Shown: positions 3,309-28,095 of the stretch, one piece after another
Layout: the number at the start of each line of letters is the position of its first letter
Position numbering within the stretch: the first letter of the stretch is position 1
From: a virus
IMG/VR virus record: IMGVR_UViG_3300023180_000304
Coordinates: 1 to 28,260 of that record
DNA length: 28,260 nt
Strand: one strand, 5' to 3'
The notes under the pieces: model-generated
Databases searched by the model: none
What the model was told of the DNA's origin: nothing
What the model saw: the letters and a program-made list of their open reading frames with translations, nothing else
Made by a program: the position numbers and the translations under genes

Positions 3309-3331
3309 TTAACGAAAGCACCCTATACAGG

Positions 3332-3339
3332 TATTTATC
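3332..3339 (-). promoter_or_regulatory. T4-type late promoter (GATAAATA) for the 112-aa gene
   Basis: The plus strand tatttatc gives GATAAATA on the coding strand, overlapping the TAA stop of the coiled-coil gene (Arg codon AGA, then TAA). It lies about 24 bases before the next ATG. The octamer is the same as the one before gp25, and the overlap with an upstream stop codon is the same arrangement. It would drive the 112-aa, 73-aa and fibre genes. Confidence 0.65.
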
Positions 3340-3550
3340 TACCTAATAAGTCATGAACTAATTTTTTCAATTCTTCAATTTCCCCATGAAGATTGGAGAC
3401 TTCTCTTTCTAAATTTTGCTTTTCTTCTTCTTGTTTTTTTAAAGTATTTCTTTGACGGACATATTCTAGATATGCCCGTCTGTCAGTATTTACTATCGCA
3501 CCAGAACTTGGATCACGATAGAGGTTTTGATATCCCTCTACCTTTATCAT
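3335..3550 (-). CDS. Small coiled-coil virion-associated protein (71 aa)
   Basis: The product begins MIKVEGYQNLYRDPSSGAIV, with a short beta-type head that also holds NTDRRAYLEYVRQ. From about residue 33 it becomes a charged heptad stretch (KKQEEEKQNLEREVSNLHGE, then IEELKKLVHDLLGR), a coiled coil that probably forms dimers or trimers. Small proteins of this form recur in the structural regions of T4-like marine phages, but I know of no demonstrated function. The start overlaps the DUF4815 stop as ATGA and has no clear ribosome site, so it probably depends on coupling. It may act as an oligomerising clamp or chaperone for the neighbouring fibre proteins; that is inference. Its TAA is embedded in the next late promoter octamer. 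Confidence 0.85.
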   Translation of the reverse strand: MIKVEGYQNLYRDPSSGAIVNTDRRAYLEYVRQRNTLKKQEEEKQNLEREVSNLHGEIEELKKLVHDLLGR

Positions 3551-10594: not shown

Positions 10595-12178
10595 TTAGAA
10601 CTCTAATACGATTTTAACGTCTTCCTTCTGTCGTTCATTCCTGGTAACAGAGGGTCTATTGTCAAGGTAGATGATCTCTCCCTTTCTTTTATTTATTTCT
10701 GGATTTGCAAGACCATCTGTAAACTGAACACCAAGATTAACAACTCTACCATTATTAAGTGTTGTAGTAATACCACTAAAGTTTTGATCTACGTTAACAC
10801 TGAATGATCCACCAGTTTTAGTAATTGCATTTGAACTGGATGTAAAGTTAATAATCGGTGCCCTGGATCTTACATTTGTTGCATCAGTTTCATCCCCAGT
10901 AGCTTCTTTATAGTAGAGACTTCTGTCTTGATAATATTTAATAACCTTAGTTTCTGTGTCGTAAGAAGCAACAATACCCCTAGCTGTAGATCCAACACCT
11001 ACAGTTTGCTGAATCGTGTCTCCAACAACCAAATCCTGTGCAGCACTTTGGGTTTCATATTTAATTGAATATAGTGCTGAGAACTGGTTATCGGTAAAGA
11101 TACTATCAGACCCTAAAAGGGTTGGATTCTTAACAATTCCAACCTGTGCAAAAACTGTATCATCAGCAAAATCATAAGAAGAATTATCAAATCTTGCATA
11201 CATCAGAACTTTATCTGCACCAAGTTCTTTGTAAACATCAAAACCATGACCTTTAGATGGTGGAATAATTGGTGTTAACTTAGCAAAAGCAGAAGTTGCA
11301 GTTTGAACACCCGTGTTTTCACTGGAGAGATCAACACGTCCAAAGGAATATCCAGATCCACCCGAAGTTACTTGTGTTTCAATAATTTGACCAAGAGAGT
11401 TTGTTGTTACCCTGACTTTTCCACCTTGACCATCACCAAGAATTGGGAACTCTTTAGCAGTAAACTGAGGATATCCCAAACCTGGTTCATCAATAGCAAC
11501 GACTTTAATTTGGTTACTATTCACTTCAGAATTGGCATTATCTCTAACAGCCTGAATACCAGTATTGGTTGTAGTTGACCAATCATTTGGTACAGTAATA
11601 TATTCCGTAGAGTCAAACTTGACAATATCACTTGGGCTAATAGTATACATGTATTTCCACAAGTAACCATCACCACTAGTTCCTGCTCTACTTGGTTCAA
11701 CATCAGTAAATGTTGGTTCGTCAAGAGAAGCAGATGGTGTTGTTGAAATTCCAGTAGCTGTTCCGTTATCCAAACAAATATAGACACGGAAATCACTATT
11801 TACAACATAATAATTAGCATCATAAAGTCTATTGGAATTAGTTACCTGAGCTTGATAAGTTGCACTATAATCATGCCTATAATAATCATATGTTGATCCC
11901 TGAACCCAGTTTACTTTTCTAATCAATCTTCTTGTGTTAGAAGAGTTGACACGTTTACCAAAAAGCATCGTGTCATAAACATGATTAGAATAGTTGAAAT
12001 TATCAACAGGAAAAGGTGTTCCACCAGTATCATTCCAAGTGGAGGTTCTACCATATCCAGATCCAGTAGGATTGGATAAACTCATAAAAGCATAATAAGA
12101 ATTTGCTGTATTTGCGACAGATGCCACAAAATTCTCAGCATTCAAAATCCTAAATTGATCTGTAATAATAGCAGACAT
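10595..12178 (-). CDS. 8: Baseplate wedge subunit gp8
   Basis: The 527-residue product has the recognisable pattern of T4 gp8 (334 residues), a dimeric wedge protein bound to gp7/gp10 and gp6. Visible elements are NSYYAFMSLSNPTG near residue 26; then TPFPVDNFNYSNHVYDTMLF and GKRVNSSNTRRLIRKVNWVQ (residues about 54-93); YDYYRHDYSAT; YYVVNSDFRVYICLDNG; and GDGYLWKYMYTIS near residue 170. The extra length relative to T4 lies in the middle, which holds two Gly-x-Gly-Tyr units (DEPGLGYPQFTAKEF, TSGGSGYSFGRVDL; residues about 224-283), and in the C-terminal part. It is probably transcribed from its own late promoter just upstream. Its TAA lies four bases before the DUF4815 start. Confidence 0.93.
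   Translation of the reverse strand: MSAIITDQFRILNAENFVASVANTANSYYAFMSLSNPTGSGYGRTSTWNDTGGTPFPVDNFNYSNHVYDTMLFGKRVNSSNTRRLIRKVNWVQGSTYDYYRHDYSATYQAQVTNSNRLYDANYYVVNSDFRVYICLDNGTATGISTTPSASLDEPTFTDVEPSRAGTSGDGYLWKYMYTISPSDIVKFDSTEYITVPNDWSTTTNTGIQAVRDNANSEVNSNQIKVVAIDEPGLGYPQFTAKEFPILGDGQGGKVRVTTNSLGQIIETQVTSGGSGYSFGRVDLSSENTGVQTATSAFAKLTPIIPPSKGHGFDVYKELGADKVLMYARFDNSSYDFADDTVFAQVGIVKNPTLLGSDSIFTDNQFSALYSIKYETQSAAQDLVVGDTIQQTVGVGSTARGIVASYDTETKVIKYYQDRSLYYKEATGDETDATNVRSRAPIINFTSSSNAITKTGGSFSVNVDQNFSGITTTLNNGRVVNLGVQFTDGLANPEINKRKGEIIYLDNRPSVTRNERQKEDVKIVLEF
10690..10697 (-). promoter_or_regulatory. Possible internal late promoter (AATAAATA) inside gp8
   Basis: The coding strand reads AATAAATA within the Asn-Lys-Arg-Lys codons near the gp8 C-terminus, about 100 bases before the DUF4815 gene. 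It keeps the ATAAATA core but has A in place of T at the first position. It could add transcription of the very long downstream gene, but it lies in an A-rich coding stretch and may be chance. Confidence 0.2.
11330..11505 (-). other. GxGY beta module inserted in gp8
   Basis: Residues about 224-283 of gp8 read VVAIDEPGLGYPQFTAKEF, then DGQGGKVRVTTNSLGQIIET, then QVTSGGSGYSFGRVDL. The same order (Gly-x-Gly-Tyr, a Gly-Thr-Gly-Ala-like strand pair, then a second Gly-Ser-Gly-Tyr) occurs several times in the giant protein and once in the DUF4815 protein. It probably explains part of the extra length of this gp8 over the T4 protein. Confidence 0.6.
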
Positions 12179-12217: not shown

Positions 12218-15200
12218 TTACTGTTTACTCAGAGCACCAGTATTTCTAAGACCACCGTTCCTTCTTTGGAAAGTTGGATATGTAGTCATACCAACTTCAA
12301 AGGAATTTCCATCTACGGAGACAGAAATAGGATTATCATTCCTAGTAACACTGGAAATTCTTCCCCAAGAAATTCTACCTGCTGGTTCAAGATAAGAACC
12401 TGTGGTAGCAATTCCAACAAAATTAGTGTCTGGATCAACCTGACATGTAAGAATACCAACTGTTCCAGAGAACTGAGTGTAATATGCTTCATAAATGTTA
12501 TCTAACTTATCAGTAGAAACTCCGATAACATTAGTTGTACCAATTCCGACTGAAGTTGCTGATCCAACAAGTGTTGTGAGACCAGTTCCGACACCAGTAT
12601 CAAATACTAGAACACGATATCCTTGTACTAATTCTTGCCTTTCTACCAAAGTAGGAACATCTTGAAGGTCAAGTTGGAAAGTTATTCCTAAACCTTCTGG
12701 GGGAATACTGAAGTGATACTGAGATCCAATTCCAGATGTATTAAGGACATACGCACGTTCACCATTTTCTTTGATTGTCAAAGAAACTGTTGCTCCAGCA
12801 CCAACACTTAAAGTAGATGTTGCTGCTACAGAAACTGTTGTTACATCAAAACCAGTGGATAATGTATATTCAATAAATTTCTCCGTATCAGCACCAAGAA
12901 CAACCATTTGTGTTCCATCGGTACTCATAGCAAAATCTGTTGGAGCAGCATCATCAGCACTCAACGATCCAGAACTAGATGCATAAGAAGCACTTGTAAT
13001 ATCAAAAGCACTGGACAATGTGTAACTGTAAAGTGCTGAATCCACTGGAGAAATTGTAATAACCTTAGTGCCAGTGTCTACAATTTCCAATCCTCTGTGA
13101 GTTAAGGTTTGGTTAGCAATAGTTGTTTGAGTGGATATACCTGCTGCTGTATCACTTGTCAAATCCCAAGCAACAGAAAGATCAAATTGATTTAACTGAG
13201 TAACAAATGGTGCTTGAGCACCACGACCAAGAGTGTACAGTTTGGTTCCATCATCACGAATAAAGATGTCATAAATGTCTTGAACTTGTGTACTAATTCC
13301 AAGTTGATTGCTAGCATTGATGGTTGCAGTATCAATTTCATAAGGAGTGGAAAGATCCCACTCAGTAATAGTCAGAGTGTTCTGATCAGCAACATATAAC
13401 TTGGTTCCATCTGGTCTCAAGAAAATTGCCTGAAGATCATTCTTAGAACCGTCTACAAGATTTTGACCTTTTCTGTAAATTGCCTTAGTTACATCAAATG
13501 GATAGAATTCCTCCAATCTTGCAAAAGAAGTTGTGATTCCAGTGATAACACCAGTGTACCCTTGAACATTAGTATCAATAATTCCAGTAATAAGTTCGGT
13601 TGGAATTGTGGTTGTAGAACCGATTCCAGCAGTAGAGAATCCAGACATAATGAGTCCTCCAAAATTACTGTCTGGATCACCAGTTGGATCAACACCCAAG
13701 AAGAGAGAAACATCTTCAACAAAAATTTCAGTGTCTGATGTTGTAATATCTTTGAGAACTTTTGCAGTTGGATAAATTTGTGCCTCAATAGAATCTCTTG
13801 CTTTAGAAATTATCTCACCACCAAGAACTCTATCAACTTTTTGCTTAGTCCAAGCAATTGGTTTTGGTTCCGTAGTGCTGACACCATCTCCTCTATAAAG
13901 AGATGTTTCAATTTCACTGGACGATTTAATTCCAACAATAATACGATCACTTTCTTGAGAAAGATTGTCAAATGTTAAAGTTGCTTCATTTTTTTCAATG
14001 AATGGAGTTCTTCTTAAACGAATATCATCACCAGTTTTGATAGTCTCCGTAATATCGTTTAAGAAACTATCAACCCCACCAGTTCCTCTGTAGAAGAAAA
14101 TGACAATATTGTCTTCTGGTGCAGGTGGTTCGGCAAATGTTATAGAAGTTCCACCATAAAACTCATATGCATCACCTGGTTCTTGAAGAATTCCATTGAT
14201 AAAAACAATTAAAAGATACTCAAGTTCAATAGAAGCAGAATCAGCATCATTTTTATCGGTTTCAAAACTAACCAATTGGTCATTATATGCTAATGGGAAT
14301 CTAGTTCTAGTTCCATCTTGGAAAGGTTTGATGCTATCAATGTAATCCATTTCACCAAACTGCCATGCTGAGAATTCATCCTCAAATGTATCATCAATTG
14401 TTATTCTGAATTCATTAAAATCGTCACCAGCAACTGGGTCCGTTGTCATACCAACAACTCTAACAACATCACCTCTTCTAAATGCATATCCAACTTTTGT
14501 GATATCAAACTGCTGAACTTCAAATAAAGTTGCACCAACACCAGTTTGTACAACACCACCAGTACCAGAGGTATAAGTGTATGTTCCTGCTGTATTAGCA
14601 GCACCAATATTGATAGTGAAGTTATTAGCATCAATATATTGAAGAACTGTATAATCATATCCAATTTCTGTGGATGGGAAAATTGTGCCACCAGATCCAA
14701 CAGGGGCATTTGGAGAGAACTGAAGATTTTTCAGTTGAACAACATCACCAGTTGTAAATCCATGCCCAACAGCACTAACTGTAGACAACCCAGTAGTATC
14801 ATCATAAGTAAAATCTACAATTGGATTTGAATTAAAGAATGTGTTGATCCCTAAAACACCAACAGTAATTGACATTCCAATACCAGTTACTGTTGTAGTA
14901 CCAGTAGCAAGTCTAGAAACACCCTCAATAACAAGATTGTCATAACGAGGTTCTTCAATATTAATTGTTGGATTTGTATATCCACTACCAGCATTGGTAA
15001 TAGTAAAGGCTAACGTTCCACCAGCACCAACAGTTGCTGTAATTTCGGCAACAGTACCTGTATGACCAGATTCAGTAACGGCAATTCCAGGAGCCGTGAT
15101 TGTAGAATATCCACTACCAAAACTTGCGGTAGTCCATTTGGCAAATGTTCCACCACTATTGTATGTGTGAGCAAATGTTACAACACCAACTTGAGTTTCA

Positions 15201-18200
15201 AATTTAGTACTAGAAAGAATTCTAGTTGCATAGTATGGACCAATCGGTTTTACCTCAAATGCATTTCCAGCAGTAGATCCAGATCCAGCATACGTATGAG
15301 CAATGGTAGAAACACCAACATTAACTACAAATTTATTGGTTCCAGCAATTCCAAGAATTGGATACTTATTGATATCTACTGCCTTTCTACCAGAACTACC
15401 ATCTGGGAAAACAGAAGTTGTTATACCAGCATGGGGTGCAGAACAAGTAAATCCAATATTGGAAAGATGCACAAGTCTACCCACTCTAAAGTTGTGAGCT
15501 GATGTAAGTCCAACTGTGGCAATACCAGTTCTATTATCGTAATCAAAAGAATTGATAGTAAAGTTTACACCCTGTGCCGATGGGAAATTGTAGTTGTTTG
15601 CAAACGGAGATCCAGATGAACAAGTGAAATTGAGATCTTTGAGTTCAATCTTATCACCAGTGTCAAGTTCGTGATCAACAGATGAGGTTACGGTAAGAAT
15701 ACCAGTAGTGTTATCATAATCAGCATCAGAAACAGCAAGGAAAGTACCCGTTGTAGGCACACCAGTAATAGCAGTAATTTGTCCAAGAATAACTGTTGGT
15801 ACTGCAGTTGCGGCACGCAATGGTGCGTATCCAAGACCATTTGTAGATCCAAACGAAATTGGAACACCACCTCTTGGCAATTGATTCAAATTAACATCAT
15901 TTGGATCAATAATCTGATCACCACCAACTGACGTAATGCCAGTAAATATAACACTACTAATTCCTGCAACCTCAGTAATTGAGAAATTATTATCCGTGTT
16001 ATTTGGTGCTGATGGAGCTTGAAGAACACCATTAATGAAGACTAATCCATTTCCACCAGTTGTTCCAATTCCAGTAACATTGCTTCCTTCAGAAGTTAGT
16101 GTGAATTCTGAAGTTACACCGTCAAACTTATCAGAAACATCGTCAAAAATTAAGTTAGTATCATAATCTTTTCTCAAATAAACTCTACCAGAGAAATTAG
16201 ATCTTGGGATGGTTAAACCCCTACTATCTAAATCTTGTCTACCAGCACCCATTGGTGCTTCAGTAAAGTGAATTTTACTATTTACAATATCAAAAGATCC
16301 TCTATAAACACTAACGGCATCAAATTGACCGTGAGATGTTGCACTTGATCCAACAAATCCACGTTCAACTTCAACAAGTGGAAGAGTACCAATTGCCCCT
16401 ACACCAGTAGTATTAGTGGATCCAAGACCAACAATAGTAACCTTCATATACTCTTCACCAACTTTAATCACATCTGCTGGTCTAAACGAAGAAATTCCAG
16501 AAAGTTGGATAATAGTTGTTCCTGCACCAATAGAGTGCATAGTTTGTTCAGATAAAGATGTTTTTGATAAAGGTGACTGAACAATACCATCAATGGTGAT
16601 AATGCTCTTCTCATTCCTCTTTGCCATGGCAAAAACATGTCTGTTTCCAGAACCAAGATCAGTAAATGTCACAGCAGTTCCAGCAGCTGCTGCTGTCGTA
16701 GTAATAGCAACTCTAAATTGAGCAGAATTATCTCTGATAGCATAAACTGTTTGTGGTAATCTTGCTGTTCCAACACCAGTATCATAAACAAGACCAGTGG
16801 CACCTACACCAATCAAATTAGATCCTGCTGCATATTCAAGTTCTTCTCCAGTCTGGAAGAAATGGTTTAATGTGAATACACCTGTTGTTGTGCTAAGAAG
16901 ACCAACTGTTGTTGGGTCAAAAGTCTTGGCAAAGATATCAGTTCCTTCATGTTTGAGATCAAACTCTAAAATTTCTCTTTGGTTAATTCCATAGTAAATT
17001 GACTGGGAAACATTTTCGTTTACATCACCATAAGATAGATCACCAATTCCAGCAATATCACCGTTATTGTCAAGATCTCTGTAGATAATTTCATTAAATG
17101 TCTGAACAAGAATATCACCAGTGTAGTCTGGATGGAACTTGAGATCTACTCCAGTGGCAGAATACTCTGCGGAGAAAGTACCAATACCATTAATGTCGTT
17201 GACAGACAAATATGGATAACTTAAAACATACAGATTTTCTCTTGCTTTTTGATCATTTACAACATAAACTTGATGTAAGGATTGAGTCTCACCGATACTC
17301 ACTCTAACAGTAGATTTTAGTGATCCATCAGTAATACTATTAATACCAGTAATAATCGTTGGAGTTCCACCAGTTACTGTGGCAAACTCAGTTTCAAGTC
17401 TACCTGTTCTTTCTGTACCATTTTCTGTTCCAGAAAGTTTGAATCTATAAGTTCCAATACCAGCACTAGTATTGCCAATGCTAACAGTTTGAGTTCTCAA
17501 TCTAACATCATTAGATCCATTATTATTGTAAATGAGACTTACTATCCCAGAATCAATAGAAGAAGTGAATGATCCAATAAATGGTCCAGAAAGTCCATTT
17601 AATCCAACTCTGGTATTAAATGCTGTCAATTCTGTCAAGAAGGTGTCAGCACCATTATGGGTAAGTACTATCTCAATATAATCTACCGTGTTTTCTAACT
17701 CATCAAAAACTTCAACACTGGTATAGAAAGTATCAGCCGTTGTTGTACTAAATCCAAGAACAGTTGCTCCAACACCAGCAACAACATCTTGAGTTTTAGA
17801 AATAAGATCCACAAATCCAATACTTTGAGATCCAATTCCAGCAGAATCATCATCAAAGAAGGTTTGTAAAAGTTTTACTTCATAATCAGTATTGTAAATC
17901 TCATTTGGTGTAAATCTCAAAGAATATTGATTTGTTTCTTCGTTAAAGAATCCATCAAGTTCTCCAATAGTTTCACCAACACCAACTTTTTCAAGAACAA
18001 ACGTGTCTTCATTATTACTGATCATTACCAATTCCTTGAGTCCCATTTCAGAGTCATTAGTGACATCTACGATTTGAGCTAAGAACTTGTTGGTTTTTCT
18101 ACCATCAGTGAACAATGAAACATCTTTATAATCAAGAAGTTCATCCGAATCTTCATTTAAGAATTGACTGCTAATATCATCAATACCGATAACTCTATTT

Positions 18201-21200
18201 GACTTATTAAGGATGAAATCAACGACTTGTACATTTAAGAATTCAATAGACTTTGATGTATTTGTTGTTGCATCAACATCTAATGCATAATCAAAATCAT
18301 TAATTGTGTCAACTCTCTTAGATCCATCAAAAACGTCAAGAACTAAGAATGGTTCTTCTTGTGCTGTCGTGAAAGAAGCACCTACATTTCCCTTTGGATT
18401 AATTTGAGTATCTGCAAAGTTCCTATATCCAGCTGGGTGAACATTATCATTTACAAAGCTAATAATATCATTATATGCCTTAGTGCTTTGAATAGAATAA
18501 GACATTCTTTGATAATAATCATTATCACCAGTTACTTGATAGTCTTCACTGAGTTTCCCAATATCATCACCCCAACCCTTTGTAAAAGTAGATGTTGAAT
18601 CAATTTCAAACTTGCCAACTTTTGAAGAAATTTCAGAGACAGTACATTTTGCCCCAGTTACAGAACCAGTTAATGTATCTCCACTTCTAATTGGTGTAGT
18701 TCCCGTCACATTAAGTTTTCCAGTCAAAGCATTAAAACTACTGACAACTAAGTCAGTAGATCCGACTAGAATAAGATCGTTCAGATAAAGGAATTCACCT
18801 TCAACAAATAACGATGTTTTTTTGTTTACTTTGAATTCTGGTACGTTATCTTTTTTAGCTACATTTGCAAACAGTCCTGGGGTTGTAATTGCAATTCCCG
18901 TATTTGTTCCAGCAGGAACAAGACTACTGAGATTATATGTAAGTTTGTTTGGATTAACACTAGTGTCAAAATTAGTGACTGTAAAGAATTGATATCCATA
19001 ATCAGAAGAATTATGTCCCTCACCAGTGGTAGATGCTAGTCCAATTCCCTCTACAAAAACTTTATCACCAACAACGAATGGTGCTGTAGAGAATCCCAAA
19101 ATAGGTGTGGAGATGCTTAATGTAACTTGATTATCCGTGCTAGAAGCAACACTAACAATAGAAATTCCATTGTCGTTATTAACAGCTACTGCACTGTAAA
19201 CAACATCATTCTTAAGTCCAACTGGATTTCTATCAATTCTAATTCCAGCAGTTTCCACCCCATCAACGAGTGTTGTTGGGCTTACAGCGTTACCTGATAA
19301 TTCGGCAGATCCTTGGAAATCAGACACATTGCTGTCAGAAGAGGGATCATACAGAACAATAGTTGGTGGAGTTAGATAATTTTTACCACCAGTAACTACA
19401 GTAATAGAATCTAGAGTTTCAAAATCAGAAACTGTAAGTTCATCTGGAACATTAGCAGTAGGAGTCAGTGTTTTATCTGATGGATAAGAGAATCCTGGTG
19501 TTAAAAGTCTTACAGACTCTAGTTTACCAATATTTTCCGAATTTAATCTTAAAACTGCATCGGATCCATATGTAGAAGTAATACTAGAAATATTTGGAAC
19601 TGTTTTATATCCAATTCCACCAAAAATGATCTTTACCTTATCAATTGCACCAGTGGCACTTGTAGATGTCGTTTTATAGTTTATAGAATCACATTCGGAA
19701 ATAGAATATGAAGATCTCTCAGTGACATCAGAAAGATTGACATCAAACGTAGTGCTAGTTACTCCAGTGATTTGGAATGTTCCATTGTACTTGCTATTGG
19801 TAAACCTAATTTCATTAAAACCACTTACATCAGTATCTGCTGTACTAATAAATCCACCCTTATCAATATTATAGTAAATAATATCTGGCAGTGCAGAGGA
19901 GAATCCTACCGTTAAACCAGCTCCTGCTGTTCCATTGGTTCCAAAAGACGAAATTAAGAAATTAGTAGTTTGTCCAGTGGATACTAAAGAATTATTAAAC
20001 TTATCATCATAGTATATTTTTAAATTGTATCCAGATAAACTTGAATCTTCTAAATTAAAGACAAGATCATTATTTCTATAAACTGGAAGTGGGGGATTTA
20101 CAAGAGAAAGTGTCTGAGAAGTTCCACCAACAGAAGTTAAATTAACGAAAATTGGGGGAGAAGAGAGGGCATCAATTCTGGTTTCAGTAAACCTAAAATT
20201 ATTTTTATCAATGACAAAAACATAATAAGATCCAGTTGAAAGTCCACCAATAACTTCACTAGATTCATAATAAACTTTATCACCAGTTGAATACTGATGA
20301 TTAGTCTTATTGATAGTATTTGTTGATGTATTAACTCCTACAGAACTAATTGCTACTGGATTTACAAGAATTTTTTCATCAACAACTTTAATGACTACAG
20401 TAGAGGCAAGACCAACTCCAGTGCTAAATCCAGGATTTACTTGCAATTCAATTGTATCACCATTAGTTAACCCGTGTGTCTCACCAGTCGAGACAGTAGC
20501 AGTAATTTTTTTAATGTCTGCTGTTACTTGATCATAATTTGTTTCAAATTTATAGTCATACAAATTCATATATTTCACATCACGGAAATATACTTGATCA
20601 CCATCTAAAACTGTAGAAATACCGATTGTGTCTTTAGATGTTTTAATTGCATAGAACTGACTTGGCAGTATAAAAATATTACCATCTGGACTTGTAGAAA
20701 TTCCAATAGAAGTTGTACCAAGACCAACTGAATAAGAAACTAATTGGTTTGTTACAAATGGATGATCTTCAAGGAAAATGTTTTGAGTGAGAATGCTCCT
20801 TTCAGTGGTTATTCCATTAAATTGATATGATCTGGTTGTGGAAATTCCAGCAGTGGTTCCAATACCAACAACCTCAAAGGGATTGAAGAACACCGATTCT
20901 TGTTCTCTAGAGGAGAAATATGGTGTTTCTACTTTAACCGTAAATCTTTGAGGGGAATAAGTTACTGTTTCAGTAGCGGTATGGGCAACTCCACCACTAG
21001 GAGTTTCTGATGCAAATCTTTGAACTCTGATAATACCATCACCAGGAAATGAATTTAAAATACTAAAAGTTTCATTGGATATTTTAAGAGAACTACCAAT
21101 AGAAACTGGGAGAGCAGTTACTGTAATGTCTGTGGTCATGCCACTGACACCAGTAGTTCCCATTCCTACTACAAGTTTAGAATCTGGTAAATTTGTAGTA

Positions 21201-24200
21201 ATGATATGGGAATCATCCAGATTTTCCACAAAAGTAGAAAGACCAGTGATTCTAACAATATCGTTGTTACTAAGAATAAAACTTGGGCTAATATTAATTT
21301 CTACAGTCTTATCGTCTTTCCAAGATACAATGGCATTTTCATAAACAGTTTCTGTTGATGCTATAGATGAGACAGATCTTCCAGAAATCTTAGAAACTTC
21401 AGCAGCAAGACCAGTTCCAAATTCAGTATCACCAAATCTTAATGTGTCACCAATAGCATATCTTGCATTTCCAGTAGCAGCAATACTAATGGAATTGATT
21501 GATCCAGAACTAACTACATCTACTAAAGCATCTTGAGGAAATACTCTGTATGGTTCAATAACAAAATCATAAGAAGCACCAGGTTCCGCAATTTTGTGTG
21601 GGAAAGTGTTTCTAGAAAGATTTGAATTGTTGAAATCAAAGTTTTGATCAATAGAAACCGCAGGATCTACGTTAACAGGAATACTTTCTGATCTAAAATA
21701 ATTTCCAACAAAGAATGGGAATTGTGGATTTCCATTTACATCAATTGTAGCATAGTATGCGTAAATTCCTTCTGGAAATTCATTAGTGATTGTAAATCTT
21801 CCATTGAATTCATCAAGATCACCAGAGTCAATAAATCTGTAGTCATCAACAAAAAATCCTAATGGGAAAGTTGTTGAATCTGGTCTGTTAGAAATGTATG
21901 AAGCATTTGATGTGTATCCAGAACCTACTCTTTTAATACCACTCTGAATATTCTCTGGGTCATTGTATCCATAAGCGCCATAAATTGGATTTCCATCATA
22001 TGCCCACCCAATAATTGGAGAGTGGAAAGATCCATTATCACCTAATGCACTTCTTAAGGTTACTCCATATCCAATAGCAGCATACTCAAGACCTTGATCT
22101 GGAGTTGGAGTTACAATTTCCCCACCATTATCGTCAATCTTGGCAAACTTATTGACACCCAAACGTCTTACGAAACCATTCAGAATTGCCCCAGAACCAA
22201 CCGAATTAGCCTTAATAGTGGTTGTATTAGGATCGTAGTTTAAACCCTTGCTGAGGACGACTACAGAGGTTACTACACCCGCATTATTTGTGAGAGCTCT
22301 AAGTCTTGCACCAGTTCCAGTTGTTCCAGTTCCTACTGGGTTGGAATTAACGACTAATTCTGGTGGAGATGTATATCCACTACCACCATTAAGAACGAAC
22401 ACACTATCAATCTGTCCATTAAGAACAACAGGTCTTACTTCAGCACCAGTTCCACTATTAACAGAAATTTCTGGTGTTTTTTCAAAATTGAGGATCTCAG
22501 ACCCATAATCAGTTCCAGCATCGTAGAGATAAGCATCTACAATTGGACCTCTAACGACTGGAGTTGCTGTAAATGTTCCTTCCGTAGATTGAGTTGTTAC
22601 TGCCTTAATTGTAACAGCAATTTCTGGATATTTAAAAATGTGACTTCCAACACCAACTGTTTGCAAATTAGCAAACTTCTCTCTATTGAAATCCGTAAGA
22701 TTAGTTCCACCAACACCTGCATTTGCAAGTCTAAACTCTCTATCAGACAGAGTTAAAACTTTGTATTGAACTGTTGTGGAAAGTCCAGAGATAGGAGTAT
22801 CAAAGTATTCATATTCTACAAAATCACCGTTAGTAAAGTTATGGTTATCAAAAACAATACTGTTATTTGCTGTATTAATACCTGTTGACTGAACAATGAG
22901 TTTTCTATTAGAATATCCTTGTCCAGGGTTAAGGACATTAATTCTATCAATCTTTAGCTTCTTATTAGTAGTTCTGAACTTCATCAGTCCAGCATTGTTC
23001 TCAGTTGTAATACCAATTGTATTAATACCCAACTGAGCATCAAGTTTAGTATTATGAACCTGAATAGTGCTGCTATTGATAAACTTAGAGTAATAGATAT
23101 TACCTGTTTGAAGTGTTAATCCTTGTACAGCATCATTTGCTGTATTTGTAGAGATACCAAGTGCCGAATTTCCTAATGCGTTGTAAACAATAGGATCTCC
23201 AGTTTGGAAATTATGTTGAGTTTCAAAAGTGATAGTATTTGCGGAGACATCAACACCACCACCTTCAGCAAGGGTATTGGCATTAAAGAAGACTTCTCTG
23301 AACTCCGAAGCAAGAGTTGCAGATGCTGTAGCTCCTTCACCATTACCACCAGTAATATCAATTGATACTACTTGTTCCAAGTCAAAGTTAACTGGATCAA
23401 CCAAAATGTCTTTGAAAGAACCCTCAACAACTGGTTGAACTAACGCAGTTGTTCCAGATGATACTGTTGGATTATCAACAATGACTCTTGGAGCATTTGT
23501 AGCATCATATTCAGATCCACCACTAAAAACTTCTACACGACTTAAAGGACCGTAGAATACAGAGTCATCAACTTTATAGTTGGTAATTTCAACACCATTA
23601 ATCAACATTCCAATAGAACCTGGTTGAGTAAGTTCTTTACTACCAGTTTTAATATCTTGACTCAGTGGGAACTTTTTAAGAAGTTTTTGTGGTTGAATCG
23701 TGGATTCTCTTTGTTCAGCAAGAATAAAAGAATGTGGACCACTATCAGATGGATTAAATCTCACATAAGATCCAGCTGCTAAGAAAGACCTGGAAAGAGA
23801 AATTTTAATTCTATTATTATTTGGTGGCGCTTGTACTTCTACAAAATAACTGCCAGTCGCTAAACCAACAATTGGTGCTGCTCCATCAAGTGGTTGATAA
23901 AATACCTCATCACCAGTAAAGAAAGGGACAGCATCTTGAAAGGAGATGGTATCATACGAAAGCAAATTGAGATCATAATTTTGAATGCTTCCACTTGCTG
24001 TAGATGCAACAGAAATCTGAGATTCTGTTGTTACAGGTCTAATCACATAAGATGGTAAAGAATTACTAGCAACATAACCAAATTCATCATTCTCCACATA
24101 TGTGTTAAGAACATCAGAAGTCAATACATTATCACCAGCAGATAATGGAGCTCCTAAACTAGATGCTGTATTAATTCTTTTTCTAATATCATAACTTAAA

Positions 24201-25789
24201 TTTGGATTTATACCAGAGTAGTCTCCAGATCCAAGAGTTACTGCATTATTAGTTAAGTTTACACTTACAACTTCAAGATTAGATGCTGCAATATCTTGAC
24301 TAGATCTTCTAACAACATCAACAAAATCTCCAACTTTTAGGCTGGATCTGTCAATAGGAGAACTTAAGTTAAATGTTGATCCACTAAAACTTGTTACAAA
24401 GTATCTTGAAGATGTATTATAAATCCAAGAATTAAAGAATACTTTATTATAACTAGTATCTTCCTGTTGATTAGATACTACTTGCCCAAGATTTTTAATT
24501 GTAAGTCTAGAATTCTCTACAGAAGAAAAGATAGACTCCTCTTGTCTAAACTTACTTAAAACACCAGTCAGTACAAATCTTACTTGTCTTGTAAGATCAT
24601 TATCTTCAAATGCATATACCTCAAGATCTTGTGTAATTTCTGTTCGTGGGTCAATATTTAATGTTAATCCACTACAACCAATAAACTGAGTAATGGTTTT
24701 GTCAGTGTAAGTAACGGTATCGTTTCCAACGGTAAACGATCCAGACTCTGGGAAACCAATAGTAGAGTCTACAGTAATTACAGATGCTCCTGCAGAGTGA
24801 CTACCAATAGTAAAACTAGATCCAGGAATTTGGAATTTTCCTTCAATTAAACTCTCATCATCAAATCCAATAAAGAGTGAGATTTTATAATATGTTTGAA
24901 CACCAATATCATCTGTGGTTCCTCTAGTAAAAATCTCTACCTCAGAAATTGGTCCACTGGCAGCACCAACTCCATTATTTGGTTGAGCATCTTGGAAAAG
25001 AGTTGTTCCAGAAATTTTAGTGGGATCTCCACTAATTAATTTTGCTACAACTACTTCTCTTCTAATATACTCTGCGTAGGATGGTTTTGAAAGGAATTGT
25101 TCCAGGTCAATAACTTTAGAATCAATTCCGTAAAGTACTTTTAAAAGAATTTTGATTGATTCTTCCGTACCCTTGCTTTCGTATAAACTTCTAGACTCTT
25201 TTATGAAGTTATTTACATTAAGTTCCGATGCAAGTGTTGTATCTTCTAGTCCAGGGGTGTATAATTTCTTAAGTTTGGTGTAAAATTCTTTAAGAAAGAG
25301 CGCACTAAGATTCTGTACTGATGTTCCAGAAGTGTGAGTTTCCGCAACAGACTCTTTAAATACTAATTCTTGTGGATTATTTGGAGCATGGTAGGATGTA
25401 ATTCCAGAGAAACCACGCACACATCCCGTAAATGAATTCGTAGTTACTCCAGTGTAAGTAATAATTTCGTTATCTAATTTAATTAATCCATATTCCTGCG
25501 GAAATCCCTTGGTGTTAGTTACAAAAATTTCCGTATCAGTTGTTGAAATGTCAGAGGTTACCGTTGACATTCCAGCAATTACATCTGGAGTCAGACTATC
25601 TAACTTCAGATACTTATCAATATTCTCTGCAATATCAACTGGACCACCAGCAAATTCCTGGGAGGTGTAGTAACTGCTAAGGAAATCCACAACAAGTGGA
25701 TTTTCCTCCTTGATGAATTCAGGAAGTTGACTGTCTACAACTTGCTGAATCTTTACTCTAAAATCAAAAGCAGAATCGGTGTTTATCAT
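12218..25789 (-). CDS. Giant modular baseplate protein in the gp7 position (4523 aa)
   Basis: This 4523-residue frame (roughly 0.48 MDa) lies between gp6 and gp8, the T4 place of gp7 (1032 residues), the wedge initiator that bundles with gp6 and gp25. No gp7 motif is certain, so the assignment rests on synteny. Residues 1-45 look helical (FRVKIQQVVDSQLPEFIK). Residues about 157-248 are a conserved-looking helical part (FIKESRSLYESKGTEES, KVLYGIDSKVIDLEQFLSKP). The remainder is mostly beta-rich and repetitive: Gly-Ser-Gly-Tyr modules, His-x-Phe-x-Thr-Gly-Asp modules, a YHYH-like domain (about 1252-1371), two Phe-Ile-Asn-Gly-x-Leu-Gln modules, and a propeller-like segment (about 4110-4363). The start overlaps the gp6 stop (ATGA). 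The frame is uninterrupted. It probably builds an enlarged wedge periphery and may also carry fibre-like or glycan-binding functions; that part is inference. Confidence 0.8.
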   Translation of the reverse strand: MINTDSAFDFRVKIQQVVDSQLPEFIKEENPLVVDFLSSYYTSQEFAGGPVDIAENIDKYLKLDSLTPDVIAGMSTVTSDISTTDTEIFVTNTKGFPQEYGLIKLDNEIITYTGVTTNSFTGCVRGFSGITSYHAPNNPQELVFKESVAETHTSGTSVQNLSALFLKEFYTKLKKLYTPGLEDTTLASELNVNNFIKESRSLYESKGTEESIKILLKVLYGIDSKVIDLEQFLSKPSYAEYIRREVVVAKLISGDPTKISGTTLFQDAQPNNGVGAASGPISEVEIFTRGTTDDIGVQTYYKISLFIGFDDESLIEGKFQIPGSSFTIGSHSAGASVITVDSTIGFPESGSFTVGNDTVTYTDKTITQFIGCSGLTLNIDPRTEITQDLEVYAFEDNDLTRQVRFVLTGVLSKFRQEESIFSSVENSRLTIKNLGQVVSNQQEDTSYNKVFFNSWIYNTSSRYFVTSFSGSTFNLSSPIDRSSLKVGDFVDVVRRSSQDIAASNLEVVSVNLTNNAVTLGSGDYSGINPNLSYDIRKRINTASSLGAPLSAGDNVLTSDVLNTYVENDEFGYVASNSLPSYVIRPVTTESQISVASTASGSIQNYDLNLLSYDTISFQDAVPFFTGDEVFYQPLDGAAPIVGLATGSYFVEVQAPPNNNRIKISLSRSFLAAGSYVRFNPSDSGPHSFILAEQRESTIQPQKLLKKFPLSQDIKTGSKELTQPGSIGMLINGVEITNYKVDDSVFYGPLSRVEVFSGGSEYDATNAPRVIVDNPTVSSGTTALVQPVVEGSFKDILVDPVNFDLEQVVSIDITGGNGEGATASATLASEFREVFFNANTLAEGGGVDVSANTITFETQHNFQTGDPIVYNALGNSALGISTNTANDAVQGLTLQTGNIYYSKFINSSTIQVHNTKLDAQLGINTIGITTENNAGLMKFRTTNKKLKIDRINVLNPGQGYSNRKLIVQSTGINTANNSIVFDNHNFTNGDFVEYEYFDTPISGLSTTVQYKVLTLSDREFRLANAGVGGTNLTDFNREKFANLQTVGVGSHIFKYPEIAVTIKAVTTQSTEGTFTATPVVRGPIVDAYLYDAGTDYGSEILNFEKTPEISVNSGTGAEVRPVVLNGQIDSVFVLNGGSGYTSPPELVVNSNPVGTGTTGTGARLRALTNNAGVVTSVVVLSKGLNYDPNTTTIKANSVGSGAILNGFVRRLGVNKFAKIDDNGGEIVTPTPDQGLEYAAIGYGVTLRSALGDNGSFHSPIIGWAYDGNPIYGAYGYNDPENIQSGIKRVGSGYTSNASYISNRPDSTTFPLGFFVDDYRFIDSGDLDEFNGRFTITNEFPEGIYAYYATIDVNGNPQFPFFVGNYFRSESIPVNVDPAVSIDQNFDFNNSNLSRNTFPHKIAEPGASYDFVIEPYRVFPQDALVDVVSSGSINSISIAATGNARYAIGDTLRFGDTEFGTGLAAEVSKISGRSVSSIASTETVYENAIVSWKDDKTVEINISPSFILSNNDIVRITGLSTFVENLDDSHIITTNLPDSKLVVGMGTTGVSGMTTDITVTALPVSIGSSLKISNETFSILNSFPGDGIIRVQRFASETPSGGVAHTATETVTYSPQRFTVKVETPYFSSREQESVFFNPFEVVGIGTTAGISTTRSYQFNGITTERSILTQNIFLEDHPFVTNQLVSYSVGLGTTSIGISTSPDGNIFILPSQFYAIKTSKDTIGISTVLDGDQVYFRDVKYMNLYDYKFETNYDQVTADIKKITATVSTGETHGLTNGDTIELQVNPGFSTGVGLASTVVIKVVDEKILVNPVAISSVGVNTSTNTINKTNHQYSTGDKVYYESSEVIGGLSTGSYYVFVIDKNNFRFTETRIDALSSPPIFVNLTSVGGTSQTLSLVNPPLPVYRNNDLVFNLEDSSLSGYNLKIYYDDKFNNSLVSTGQTTNFLISSFGTNGTAGAGLTVGFSSALPDIIYYNIDKGGFISTADTDVSGFNEIRFTNSKYNGTFQITGVTSTTFDVNLSDVTERSSYSISECDSINYKTTSTSATGAIDKVKIIFGGIGYKTVPNISSITSTYGSDAVLRLNSENIGKLESVRLLTPGFSYPSDKTLTPTANVPDELTVSDFETLDSITVVTGGKNYLTPPTIVLYDPSSDSNVSDFQGSAELSGNAVSPTTLVDGVETAGIRIDRNPVGLKNDVVYSAVAVNNDNGISIVSVASSTDNQVTLSISTPILGFSTAPFVVGDKVFVEGIGLASTTGEGHNSSDYGYQFFTVTNFDTSVNPNKLTYNLSSLVPAGTNTGIAITTPGLFANVAKKDNVPEFKVNKKTSLFVEGEFLYLNDLILVGSTDLVVSSFNALTGKLNVTGTTPIRSGDTLTGSVTGAKCTVSEISSKVGKFEIDSTSTFTKGWGDDIGKLSEDYQVTGDNDYYQRMSYSIQSTKAYNDIISFVNDNVHPAGYRNFADTQINPKGNVGASFTTAQEEPFLVLDVFDGSKRVDTINDFDYALDVDATTNTSKSIEFLNVQVVDFILNKSNRVIGIDDISSQFLNEDSDELLDYKDVSLFTDGRKTNKFLAQIVDVTNDSEMGLKELVMISNNEDTFVLEKVGVGETIGELDGFFNEETNQYSLRFTPNEIYNTDYEVKLLQTFFDDDSAGIGSQSIGFVDLISKTQDVVAGVGATVLGFSTTTADTFYTSVEVFDELENTVDYIEIVLTHNGADTFLTELTAFNTRVGLNGLSGPFIGSFTSSIDSGIVSLIYNNNGSNDVRLRTQTVSIGNTSAGIGTYRFKLSGTENGTERTGRLETEFATVTGGTPTIITGINSITDGSLKSTVRVSIGETQSLHQVYVVNDQKARENLYVLSYPYLSVNDINGIGTFSAEYSATGVDLKFHPDYTGDILVQTFNEIIYRDLDNNGDIAGIGDLSYGDVNENVSQSIYYGINQREILEFDLKHEGTDIFAKTFDPTTVGLLSTTTGVFTLNHFFQTGEELEYAAGSNLIGVGATGLVYDTGVGTARLPQTVYAIRDNSAQFRVAITTTAAAAGTAVTFTDLGSGNRHVFAMAKRNEKSIITIDGIVQSPLSKTSLSEQTMHSIGAGTTIIQLSGISSFRPADVIKVGEEYMKVTIVGLGSTNTTGVGAIGTLPLVEVERGFVGSSATSHGQFDAVSVYRGSFDIVNSKIHFTEAPMGAGRQDLDSRGLTIPRSNFSGRVYLRKDYDTNLIFDDVSDKFDGVTSEFTLTSEGSNVTGIGTTGGNGLVFINGVLQAPSAPNNTDNNFSITEVAGISSVIFTGITSVGGDQIIDPNDVNLNQLPRGGVPISFGSTNGLGYAPLRAATAVPTVILGQITAITGVPTTGTFLAVSDADYDNTTGILTVTSSVDHELDTGDKIELKDLNFTCSSGSPFANNYNFPSAQGVNFTINSFDYDNRTGIATVGLTSAHNFRVGRLVHLSNIGFTCSAPHAGITTSVFPDGSSGRKAVDINKYPILGIAGTNKFVVNVGVSTIAHTYAGSGSTAGNAFEVKPIGPYYATRILSSTKFETQVGVVTFAHTYNSGGTFAKWTTASFGSGYSTITAPGIAVTESGHTGTVAEITATVGAGGTLAFTITNAGSGYTNPTINIEEPRYDNLVIEGVSRLATGTTTVTGIGMSITVGVLGINTFFNSNPIVDFTYDDTTGLSTVSAVGHGFTTGDVVQLKNLQFSPNAPVGSGGTIFPSTEIGYDYTVLQYIDANNFTINIGAANTAGTYTYTSGTGGVVQTGVGATLFEVQQFDITKVGYAFRRGDVVRVVGMTTDPVAGDDFNEFRITIDDTFEDEFSAWQFGEMDYIDSIKPFQDGTRTRFPLAYNDQLVSFETDKNDADSASIELEYLLIVFINGILQEPGDAYEFYGGTSITFAEPPAPEDNIVIFFYRGTGGVDSFLNDITETIKTGDDIRLRRTPFIEKNEATLTFDNLSQESDRIIVGIKSSSEIETSLYRGDGVSTTEPKPIAWTKQKVDRVLGGEIISKARDSIEAQIYPTAKVLKDITTSDTEIFVEDVSLFLGVDPTGDPDSNFGGLIMSGFSTAGIGSTTTIPTELITGIIDTNVQGYTGVITGITTSFARLEEFYPFDVTKAIYRKGQNLVDGSKNDLQAIFLRPDGTKLYVADQNTLTITEWDLSTPYEIDTATINASNQLGISTQVQDIYDIFIRDDGTKLYTLGRGAQAPFVTQLNQFDLSVAWDLTSDTAAGISTQTTIANQTLTHRGLEIVDTGTKVITISPVDSALYSYTLSSAFDITSASYASSSGSLSADDAAPTDFAMSTDGTQMVVLGADTEKFIEYTLSTGFDVTTVSVAATSTLSVGAGATVSLTIKENGERAYVLNTSGIGSQYHFSIPPEGLGITFQLDLQDVPTLVERQELVQGYRVLVFDTGVGTGLTTLVGSATSVGIGTTNVIGVSTDKLDNIYEAYYTQFSGTVGILTCQVDPDTNFVGIATTGSYLEPAGRISWGRISSVTRNDNPISVSVDGNSFEVGMTTYPTFQRRNGGLRNTGALSKQ
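12700..13460 (-). other. Propeller-like repeat region near the C-terminus of the giant protein
   Basis: Residues about 4110-4363 contain five repeats of about 51-58 residues. The core is a hydrophobic strand, then Asp-Gly-Thr-Lys, then a second strand: FLRPDGTKLYVAD, FIRDDGTKLYTLG, IVDTGTKVITIS, MSTDGTQMVVLG and IKENGERAYVLN. Between cores are segments such as ITEWDLSTPYEID, LNQFDLSVAWDLT, YSYTLSSAFDIT and IEYTLSTGFDVT. This is the layout of blades in seven-bladed beta-propellers of the YVTN/WD40-like kind. Five cores are clear; flanking strands could complete a six- or seven-bladed ring. Propellers in tail proteins can bind partners or glycans, but no specific ligand can be read here. Confidence 0.65.
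21675..22035 (-). other. YHYH-like domain inside the giant protein
   Basis: Residues about 1252-1371 carry hallmarks of the YHYH domain: PIIGWAYDGNPIYGAYGYND, then SGDLDEFNGRFTITNEFPEG, then IYAYYATIDVNGNPQFPFFV. The conserved Asp-Gly-x-Pro-Ile-Tyr-Gly and Leu-Asp-Glu-x-Asn-Gly elements are intact. The usual Cys in the second element is Phe, and the name-giving Tyr-His-Tyr-His is Tyr-Ala-Tyr-Tyr. If the histidines of the cellular family bind metal or act chemically, this copy has probably lost that and kept the fold as a structural or binding unit. The domain call is fairly sure; the function is unknown. Confidence 0.75.
24665..24815 (-). other. GFP/IxYT beta module of the giant protein (second copy)
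   Basis: This copy reads ASVITVDSTIGFPESGSFTV, then NDTVTYTDKTITQFIGCSGL. It matches the first copy in the Thr/Ser-x-Ile-x-Val strand, the Gly-Phe-Pro turn, the Val/Ile-x-Tyr-Thr strand and the Phe-x-Gly-Cys turn. The two copies lie about 240 residues apart, with the conserved helical segment between them, which suggests an inserted or duplicated module. Confidence 0.5.
25370..25545 (-). other. N-terminal GFP/IxYT beta module of the giant protein (first copy)
   Basis: Residues about 82-140 follow the pattern Thr-Glu-Ile-x-Val, then Gly-Phe-Pro, then Ile-x-x-Asp-Asn-Glu-Ile-Ile-x-Tyr-Thr, then Phe-x-Gly-Cys-x-Arg-Gly, then Tyr-His. Visible pieces include FPQEYGLIKLDNEIITYTG and FTGCVRGFSG. 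The module recurs at residues about 325-374 (24665-24815) and, in a divergent form, in the DUF4815 protein near 4600-4790. Such modules look like small beta barrels or sandwiches used as spacers in phage structural proteins. Function is inferred from form only. Confidence 0.5.
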
Positions 25790-27693
25790 TTCCTACTTAA
25801 TTGTCCGTTGGTATAACTGGATGCCACGGGGAAACCAACCCCCGAAATTTGTTCACCAGAAGTAATGGTGTCTCTTGCCATATTTATGGTGCTATTATCA
25901 ATATTCAATTGCAAATACAGGTCTTTGAGACCAATAACATCATTTGATTCTGGAACTGCTTGTATTTCAATAATTCCGTTTAATTTGACTGTAGAAGTAA
26001 TATTTACAGTATTAATTAGAATTTCACCTTTTACGTAATCAACTGATCCAGCAGCAGGAACAATTACAATGGGACCAGTATCAGATTCTTTTACAATTGC
26101 AATTGCACCAGATTCCAAATCTGCATTTGGAACATCCGTGAAATATAATAAGTCAGAAGAACCCTCTACTGTGAATCCAGTGCTCTTGATGTTATATCCA
26201 CTAGCAACAACATGGAATTTATTTCCATAACAAATTTCATATTGAGTATACTGGTTGAGAAGTGCCTTTAAATCTCTTCTTATAATCACTTTTGTGATAT
26301 TTGAAGTGATAGCAGCATTAGTGTCGTCAATGACTTTAATTGCTTTACTATATTTGAATCTTCCACCAAAAGTGTTAAGATCAATAGAATCGGAATATGA
26401 ATTCAAACTAGAAACAACATCAGTTCTTAATTGATTTGCATCTGGAACTTGACTTGCATTATAAAATACGGTTGAATTAAGTTCAATGTATAGAAGTTTG
26501 AGATCCTCAATTCTTTGATTTACACCAGCAACGGCATAAGTTTTTAATTTGTTTAAAATTTGAGTTTTTGTAAAATCAGACAGGAATGTACCATTCTTTG
26601 GTTTAATACTTAAAACAACCGTTCCAAATTCTGGTGGATCCAACTCTTCACCACCGACAACAGATACAGATTCAGTATCTGGATAGATTCTTTGAATAAT
26701 TGCTTCGTAGTCTTTTGATGTTACTGCTCTATATTGGGAAGAATATAATCTTGGTGCATAATATTTGATAGACTCAATTGGTTCAATATCAGACCCATTA
26801 ATAGCTGATTGGTTCGTTGTTACTGTTACCGTATTTGTTGGTAAAAATGAAATATCAATGCTATTTTTTACCGATCCAGTAAATGAAAAATTCTCAGCAC
26901 CATTTCCACTAGATCCATCAGAAATAATGTAAGATACTTCAATAATGGATTCATTTTCTAATTTCTTTCCAAAAATTCCATCACCAAATAAGAGTTCATA
27001 TCTTTCGTCAGAAATTTCTTGAATAAGATAGATCTCAGAGATTGATGTAACGTCAATAATGTTTTCTACTTGATTATATTCTCTACCAACAGTTTCTTGA
27101 GGACCTTTAACCGTTATTCTAATTGAACTAGTGTCAACTCCAGGGTTGTCTAAGATATACCTCTGATCCACCGATCCATTGACCTGGAAGGTCTTTTTAA
27201 GCAGAGTTCCTTGATAGACATCAATATTACTAAATGATGCCCTTCTAGGTCCATTTCCGTTAACGTCTGCACCAGTCAGTACTGTCGTGGTGGTAATATC
27301 CTCAGGAACGGAAAATACTACTGAAGTATTGTCTACGGCACCGACACAAACCAAACCTTTGTTCAAAGTTACCGTAGGACTAGTTCCAGTAAACTCAATA
27401 TTAAAACTTACCTGAGCTTTTGCAGATTTTCTTGATCTAGGAACGTATCCAATATTCCTAGCAAGAGAAACAACATTCTCTCTCAAAGTCGCAGAGTCAA
27501 TAAAAGACTCATTAACGACCATGTTGGTGTTAAATGCAGTAATGTAGGTATTATATGCTAAAGTGTCAATCAGGATGGAAAAATTCGATCCCTCAAAGTC
27601 AAAATCGGTAAAATTTGAATTTGCTCTCAAATAAGACTTAATAGAAGTCTTAATTTGATCAAAATCTAAATTTGTATACTTAGTTAACGGCAT
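25786..27693 (-). CDS. 6: Baseplate wedge subunit gp6
   Basis: The 635-residue product is close to T4 gp6 (660 residues). Gp6 forms the inner ring of the baseplate, where two copies pair with gp7 in each wedge. The N-terminus carries the conserved region LDFDQIKTSIKSYLR, then FSILIDTLAYNTYI, then a helical stretch with ENVVSLARNIGYVPRSRKSA (residues about 10-95). A middle beta region follows. Around residues 318-410 is a baseplate-J-like domain: AVTSKDYEAIIQRIYPD, then VVGGEELDPPEFGTV and ILNKLKTYAVAGVNQRI. The C-terminus (YLQLNIDNSTINMARDTIT) ends at a TGA that overlaps the next gene as ATGA, so the giant gene is probably translated by coupling. No internal disruption is seen. Confidence 0.95.
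   Translation of the reverse strand: MPLTKYTNLDFDQIKTSIKSYLRANSNFTDFDFEGSNFSILIDTLAYNTYITAFNTNMVVNESFIDSATLRENVVSLARNIGYVPRSRKSAKAQVSFNIEFTGTSPTVTLNKGLVCVGAVDNTSVVFSVPEDITTTTVLTGADVNGNGPRRASFSNIDVYQGTLLKKTFQVNGSVDQRYILDNPGVDTSSIRITVKGPQETVGREYNQVENIIDVTSISEIYLIQEISDERYELLFGDGIFGKKLENESIIEVSYIISDGSSGNGAENFSFTGSVKNSIDISFLPTNTVTVTTNQSAINGSDIEPIESIKYYAPRLYSSQYRAVTSKDYEAIIQRIYPDTESVSVVGGEELDPPEFGTVVLSIKPKNGTFLSDFTKTQILNKLKTYAVAGVNQRIEDLKLLYIELNSTVFYNASQVPDANQLRTDVVSSLNSYSDSIDLNTFGGRFKYSKAIKVIDDTNAAITSNITKVIIRRDLKALLNQYTQYEICYGNKFHVVASGYNIKSTGFTVEGSSDLLYFTDVPNADLESGAIAIVKESDTGPIVIVPAAGSVDYVKGEILINTVNITSTVKLNGIIEIQAVPESNDVIGLKDLYLQLNIDNSTINMARDTITSGEQISGVGFPVASSYTNGQLSRK
25881..25888 (-). promoter_or_regulatory. 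Possible internal late promoter (CATAAATA) inside gp6
   Basis: The coding strand reads CATAAATA about 92 bases before the start of the giant gene, inside the gp6 C-terminal codons for Thr-Ile-Asn-Met. It keeps the ATAAATA core but has C at the first position. It could give the giant gene its own late transcript. It may equally be chance in an A/T-rich coding region, so the call is weak. Confidence 0.2.
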
Positions 27694-28095
27694 TTATCTT
27701 GTTACCTCAAGTAAGAATGCGACATTTTGCGTTGGTAAATCTTGTCCTACAATATCAAATATGACATTCACTTCAAAACTATTATCATCTGGTCTCGGAA
27801 ATACCTCAACGTTTAAATTTGCCGCTCTTGGCTCATAATTTAAGACAGTTTCTTCAATTTGTTCGGCAATAACACTAGCAGTACCATAATCACAAAACCC
27901 AAATAACGTATTTCTAACGTCTGACCCCAAATCAGGATTAAAAAACCTTTCTGTCGGGATAGTTTCTACTAAATTTCGCACTGAGCGAGCAATTGCCCGC
28001 TCATTTACAAGAATTGGAAGGTCTTTTGTGATTGGATGTGGAGCAAAGGACAAAGAAATGTCCTTGAATGCCCTAGATGTGCGAGTTGAAGCCAT
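27694..28095 (-). CDS. 25: Baseplate wedge subunit gp25
   Basis: The 133-residue product is almost exactly the length of T4 gp25 (132 residues). In contractile tails gp25 sits in the inner baseplate core, where it joins the gp6-gp7 core bundle and forms the platform on which sheath polymerisation starts. The N-terminus has the expected form: a KDISLSF strand, then a short loop, then NERAIARSVRNLVET, then the ERFFNPDLGSDVRNTLF segment. The family's signature EPR turn is visible as NYEPRAANL near residue 90, followed by the last strands (FEVNVIFDI). No strong Shine-Dalgarno sequence is seen. The nearer upstream ATG is in another frame, so this start is preferred. Its TAA stop directly abuts the gp6 ATG, as expected for partners made together. 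Confidence 0.95.
   Translation of the reverse strand: MASTRTSRAFKDISLSFAPHPITKDLPILVNERAIARSVRNLVETIPTERFFNPDLGSDVRNTLFGFCDYGTASVIAEQIEETVLNYEPRAANLNVEVFPRPDDNSFEVNVIFDIVGQDLPTQNVAFLLEVTR

Follow-up and report, generated by a model that had tools for sequence, protein, structure and literature searches.

A 4,523-residue protein in the gp7 slot of a T4-like cyanophage is probably a gp7 baseplate wedge protein enlarged at three sites

We report that the giant protein P0001 of a T4-like cyanophage is likely its baseplate wedge protein gp7. P0001 is encoded in a 28,260-base virus record, analysed in its entirety and called the window here, which is a fragment of the genome of a T4-like cyanophage (Kyanoviridae, cyanomyophage) and which comes closest, among annotated records, to phages of Synechococcus and Prochlorococcus. 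We consider P0001 to be ordinary in kind but extreme as a gp7; what is new is the resolved core, the sites at which the protein has grown and the corrected annotation.

Results

A single giant frame between gp6 and gp8

The open reading frame of P0001 begins with an ATG and contains no internal stops. The original prediction of a single open frame of 4,523 residues between gp6 and gp8 was confirmed, with the strand that it had left out being minus, and its claim of more than four times the length of T4 gp7 also held (4,523 versus 1,032 aa, a ratio of 4.4). The genes are transcribed in the order gp25, gp6, giant gp7 and gp8, with Pfam matches for all three neighbours (Table 1), and the start of the giant gp7 shares an ATGA with the stop of gp6, a 4 nt overlap like that of T4 genes 6 and 7. 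The mass of the intact chain was estimated at ~0.48 MDa.

Relatives of P0001 on more than 20 independent IMG/VR viral contigs have open frames exceeding 2,200 codons, and in most of them exceeding 3,400. Substitution rates were compared with four relatives (~70-93% block identity) in 300-codon blocks covering residues ~364-4500, and in every block dN was 0.05-0.23 and dS 0.5-2.1. All measured stretches (residues ~364-4500) are under purifying selection and no block among them was hypervariable. A chance ORF or a misassembly was ruled out by the long open relatives together with a dN far below dS. The evenness of the purifying selection favours a structural or scaffold role over a variable receptor-binding tip.

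In one relative (L081:7598-18346) the gp7 frame stops at ~3,583 aa, ~900 shorter than P0001, and in S-SKS1 (L082:21895-32600) it is split into several overlapping frames that are mostly unannotated, reflecting either sequencing errors or a damaged gene. The DUF4815 protein of the window (P0005) has a relative with a solved structure (PDB 9euf, ORF65, 2.3e-46) that could help to locate this second giant within the baseplate; a literature search for PDB 9EUF found no paper. An open-ended ORF at window positions 2-2749 matches several PHROGs named baseplate wedge subunit or initiator and had no match in Pfam or PDB.

Table 1. Positions in the window of the giant gp7, its parts (residue numbers are those of P0001) and the neighbouring genes.
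Feature	Position	Strand	Evidence or comment
Giant gp7 (P0001)	12218..25789	-	phrog_2885, 3312 bits over residues 7-3645
Core helices 1, LPEF...YYxSQE motif, residues 7-66	25592..25771	-	Putative counterpart of T4 gp7 ~647-700; minimal family, hhalign 2e-30
Growth site A, beta insert, residues 74-160	25310..25570	-	AF2 model; missing from minimal gp7 and T4
Core helices 2-3, residues 161-220, KGT motif 206-208	25130..25309	-	Counterpart of T4 gp7 ~728-758; T4-free HMM
Core beta part, residues 221-322	24824..25129	-	T4 gp7 ~760-834 via minimal family; downstream edge approximate
Growth site B, beta-rich, ~2,070 residues, residues 323-2390	18620..24823	-	KGT-VHPAG spacing; edges approximate
YHYH-like domain, residues 1253-1352, within site B	21734..22033	-	Pfam PF14240, 3.4e-26
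Core module 2, VHPAG, residues 2391-2480	18350..18619	-	Putative counterpart of T4 gp7 ~865-909 (VHPVGF); hhalign 1.2e-10
Growth site C, C-terminal extension, beta-rich, residues 2481-4523 (~2,040 aa)	12221..18349	-	
WD/propeller-like repeats, residues ~4050-4360	12710..13642	-	Self-comparison; fold presumed
gp6	25786..27693	-	Pfam Gp6-like, 2.5e-17; T4 gp6, phmmer 1.7e-35
gp25	27694..28095	-	Pfam GPW_gp25, 2.4e-11
gp8	10595..12178	-	Pfam Phage-Gp8, 7.4e-10
DUF4815 protein (P0005), 2,347 aa, next large baseplate-region protein	3547..10590	-	PF16075, 2.3e-57

Two core modules and three growth sites

Judged from sequence comparison, the gp7 core is made up of two modules, the helices with a short beta part (residues ~7-322) and the VHPAG module (residues ~2391-2480), with the second lying 2,100 residues downstream of the first in P0001. 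The alignments showed that the size of P0001 can be ascribed to three growth sites, A between the core helices, B between the modules and C past VHPAG. Site A adds ~90 residues in P0001 and roughly 500 more in P-SSM4. The predicted layout of a helical N-terminus followed by beta modules was therefore roughly right, but the helical part itself contains a beta insert (~74-160), and although a beta bulk does follow the helical part, the second conserved gp7 module within that bulk had been overlooked.

Self-comparison of P0001 identified beta modules that recur along the bulk, namely GxGY-type repeats (residues ~1125-1200, 2047-2200 and 3574-3660), HxFxTGD-type repeats (residues ~848, 966, 1814, 2965, 3360-3460 and 3660) and a motif common to residues ~71-131, in the site A insert, and residues ~321-376. 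The YHYH-like match in site B spans profile positions 90-185 of the 193 in PF14240. YHYH is predicted to be a metal-dependent hydrolase with metal-site histidines (PMC7824862). The conserved YHYH histidines were absent from P0001, which has YAYY just beyond the domain instead and about one histidine in residues 1251-1360, and thus the predicted metal site looks lost. The DUF4815 profile was present in P0005 and was not found in P0001. A phmmer comparison of T4 gp9-gp12 with the proteins of the window, the record being a fragment, gave no credible similarity.

Direct comparison with T4 gp7

Direct signals between the window and T4 gp7 were modest at the level of sequence. T4 gp7 reached P0001 at 0.011 by phmmer, and residues 730-758 of T4 gp7 matched the PHROG of the giant at 1.3e-4. 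The profile-profile comparison proposed in the original prediction did link the P0001 N-terminus to T4-like gp7 (hhalign 3.8e-5, and 2.6e-6 with more diverse rows). No credible match was found by phmmer between residues 1-640 of T4 gp7 and any protein of the window. When PDB was searched, neither phmmer with the whole of P0001 nor an HMM from the first N-terminal alignment (A1) gave a match; the N-terminal HMM with more diverse rows (A5) ranked gp7 first, at only 0.048. An HMM of the first core helices alone did not reach T4 gp7. With the KGT-helix HMM, built without T4, all nine T4-like gp7s scored 27-35 bits, whereas the best of 2,000 shuffles reached 9.4. The VHPAG HMM fell at the collinear T4 position with 11.4 bits (best shuffle 6.6); the match of this module to T4 was weak taken singly (0.012), yet collinear.

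An AF2 model of P0001 residues 1-303 (pLDDT 71, pTM 0.46) placed helices at 7-21, 24-29, 31-44 and 49-66, followed by a beta part and then by helices at 161-177, 192-204 and 209-220, and this helix order parallels that of the model of a minimal homologue. Foldseek of the residue 1-303 model against PDB returned nothing below 1e-3, and the top entry, a podophage tail piece, was probably reached through the beta insert. The case for gp7 rests on a bridge through a family of minimal homologues.

Minimal gp7-slot proteins connect P0001 to T4 gp7

Use of the second conserved region of the giant as query led to non-cyanophage phages with short gp7-slot proteins, among them BUCT608 (503 aa), SRB7757 (587 aa), Melnitz-1 (896 aa) and locus L183 (381 aa). 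Small homologues in this slot are 381-1,200 aa long, come from phages of Stenotrophomonas, Nitratidesulfovibrio, Methylophilales and others, and hold both core modules in one chain, close together and directly behind gp6. Plain tblastn with the 289-residue core of SRB7757 over 2.3 Gb found both Straboviridae gp7 (to 8e-8) and the cyanophage giants (to 1e-10), and viral contigs supplied many more minimal homologues after this search.

A minimal-family profile was built from 21 minimal proteins. It matched the P0001 N-terminus at the hhalign value in Table 1, leaving the beta insert as a gap, and T4-like gp7 at 4.2e-15. The minimal-family HMM against all of PDB had as its best two matches the gp7 of a KP1-type phage (8.2e-9) and that of T4 (8e-7), the latter over residues 647-829. 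The VHPAG module matched the minimal family at 1.2e-10 by hhalign with the minimal rows removed; a first VHPAG alignment (A3) that included minimal sequences gave 1.1e-20. Foldseek with an AF2 model of the 381-residue L183 homologue (pLDDT 62.5) returned only two PDB matches below 1e-3 and both were gp7, 9f4a (KP1) at 1e-9 and 5iv5 (T4) at 2.7e-9, with low TM-scores indicating a local rather than a whole-chain superposition. A structural match to gp7 was therefore obtained for the minimal homologue but not, at a significant level, for the N-terminal model of P0001. The minimal-family model also had a weak match in T4 at 98671-99447 (3e-5), within the beta part of the model. As the minimal family matches both the window protein and T4 gp7, the window protein appears to be a true gp7.

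Survey of relatives

The complete genomes of P-SSM2, P-SSM4, S-CREM2 and SRB7757 were searched with the T4-like gp7 profile and no protein was found beyond the one in the gp7 slot, which scored 1.3e-5 in P-SSM2, 2.5e-6 in P-SSM4 and 1.1e-9 in SRB7757. The original assignment of the giant to gp7 thus met with no competing gp7 homologue in the complete relatives P-SSM2, P-SSM4 and S-CREM2, the window itself being a fragment. The minimal-family model had several beta-part matches elsewhere in P-SSM2, P-SSM4 and S-CREM2, and we took these as shared beta repeats rather than as further gp7s because the core-helix positions matched the gp7-slot protein alone.

Across 249 homologous ORFs the order of core helices followed by VHPAG was invariant, and the upstream ORF was gp6-like in all 240 of the 240 homologues that had an abutting one. 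Closed, distinct homologous ORFs ranged from 392 to 7,312 codons. Between the KGT helix and VHPAG lay 63 to 2,775 residues over the 249 homologues (2,140 in P0001), and the tail past VHPAG measured 0 to 3,703 residues (2,044 in P0001). All three HMM modules were present in S-CREM2 ORF122, a homologue of P0001 that has been detected in the virion with 91 unique peptides and 27% coverage (PMC10665884).

Comparison with known gp7 proteins

The gp7 of P-SSM2 (PSSM2_111, 5,195 aa), annotated 'baseplate wedge initiator', occupies the same slot with the same module order and is collinear with P0001 over residues 9-3753 at 36% identity. That of P-SSM4 (PSSM4_080, 7,312 aa) is likewise annotated and has the same slot and modules, and PHROG 2885, 'baseplate wedge subunit', covers P0001 residues 7-3645 with 4,179 profile positions. 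Giants were thus already annotated and giant size by itself is no discovery. The Kyanoviridae gp7s differ from P0001 in the size and content of sites A-C, and gp7-slot lengths taken from coordinates were ~6,378 aa in S-RIM2 and ~3,494 aa in S-CAM4.

T4 gp7 (PDB 5IV5, 5HX2) shares with P0001 the core helices, the VHPxG module, the gene order and the overlap with gene 6. In T4 the core lies near the C-terminal end (residues ~647-917), behind 640 residues that were undetected in the window and minimal proteins; the site A insert is missing, and at site B the two modules are separated by ~30 residues. The 640-residue periphery of T4 is therefore not the part enlarged in cyanophages, and the different positions of the extra mass suggest that T4 and the cyanophages enlarged one core at different points. 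The minimal proteins of BUCT608, SRB7757 and L183 carry both core modules with little or no peripheral mass. Since minimal homologues begin at the core, we treated the N-terminal 640 residues of T4 as a Straboviridae trait and not as family-defining. Homology supports the proposal that the helical N-terminus keeps the gp7 role, but that proposal missed the position of the core in T4, the second module and the giants described before.

The gp7-type proteins of contractile systems are known to form a bundle with a pair of gp6-type proteins, below a gp25-type protein, and to hold spikes or fibres by their loops or C-termini (PMC10457771, PMC8894135). XM1 gp17 forms such a core bundle with gp6-type partners while its loops and C-terminus dock spikes or fibres (PMC10457771), and the gp7-like part of AlgoCIS (Alg12) has been called a re-engineering hotspot (PMC8894135). 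XM1 gp17 (242 aa) and the gp7-like part of Alg12 are far smaller than P0001 and may be likened to it by function.

Discussion

According to one publication, cyano- and pelagi-myophages lack gp7 and have VrlC as a substitute (PMC7029224). On this account P0001 would not be gp7, the cyano- and pelagi-myophages having lost gp7 and an unrelated VrlC having taken its place, and the weakness of the direct sequence signal to T4 gp7 would agree with it. However, in HTVC008M, the reference pelagimyophage, the protein encoded between gp6 and gp8 (I899_gp055, L343:33435-36485, 1,016 aa, labelled 'head closure Hc2') contains all three gp7 modules (6.5e-12, 1.2e-19 and 1.2e-19), whereas its VrlC is the DUF4815 protein past gp8 and contains no gp7 module. 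The labels also look swapped in S-MbCM7 (L342:14742-25343, 27317-35779), where the gp7-slot protein is named VrlC and the DUF4815 protein is named gp7. Substitution by VrlC was rejected on the HTVC008M result and we regard a loss of gp7 as extremely unlikely; given gp7 modules in the slot protein, the published view of a missing gp7 is probably wrong. The most economical explanation would be that gp7 escaped notice because so little of the long chain is core. Post-translational cleavage of P0001, releasing a small gp7 core and the beta parts as proteins of their own, would fit the extreme length, the wide separation of the modules and the retention of the core by homologues less than one fifth as long. 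Evidence of cleavage was not found, and in the small homologues both modules stay within a single polypeptide, making a polyprotein very unlikely. Alternatively, the bulk could serve chiefly in host recognition, as a baseplate spike that binds a receptor or attacks the cell wall, with YHYH as its enzyme, as the YHYH domain match and the propeller-like repeats might suggest. This is unlikely in view of the even purifying selection, the absence of a hypervariable segment and the apparent loss of the metal site.

Labelling of the family is uneven elsewhere. PHROG 3465, named 'connector, head closure Hc2', seems to represent a gp7 family, and the gp7 superfamily appears to be spread over ~10 PHROGs (964, 2885, 4406, 701, 19630, 26741, 17744, 3465, 38653 and 18802) in four functional categories. 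The DLP6 paper did assign gp7 by position, at 4-11% identity (PMC5349666).

With P0001 read as a gp7, residues ~7-322 would bundle with two gp6 copies and gp25, like T4 gp7 and XM1 gp17. For the ~4,100 non-core residues we infer both placement and function: the beta modules would extend from the core in long arms and build the outer wedge, and these arms could hold neighbouring baseplate and fibre proteins and may relay the signal of contact inwards, to gp25 and on to the sheath. We suggest, tentatively and with more doubt than confidence, that the outer baseplate of the Kyanoviridae consists mostly of single giant chains growing from a gp7 core, together with the DUF4815 protein, with the arms taking over the tasks of the individual gp9-gp12 proteins of T4. 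If true, six copies of the giant gp7 would make the baseplate heavier by roughly 3 MDa.

T4-like cyanophages and pelagiphages are among the commonest marine viruses. The gp7 assignment corrects a published claim of absence and explains the scattered automatic labels ('virion structural', 'head closure', 'tail', 'VrlC') of what is likely one gp7 family. The resolved core (residues ~7-322 and ~2391-2480) and the growth sites define constructs that can be fitted to cryo-EM maps or used in binding tests. The series from ~380 to 7,312 residues is a plain example of a core machine part that has grown by insertion while its core is still recognisable.
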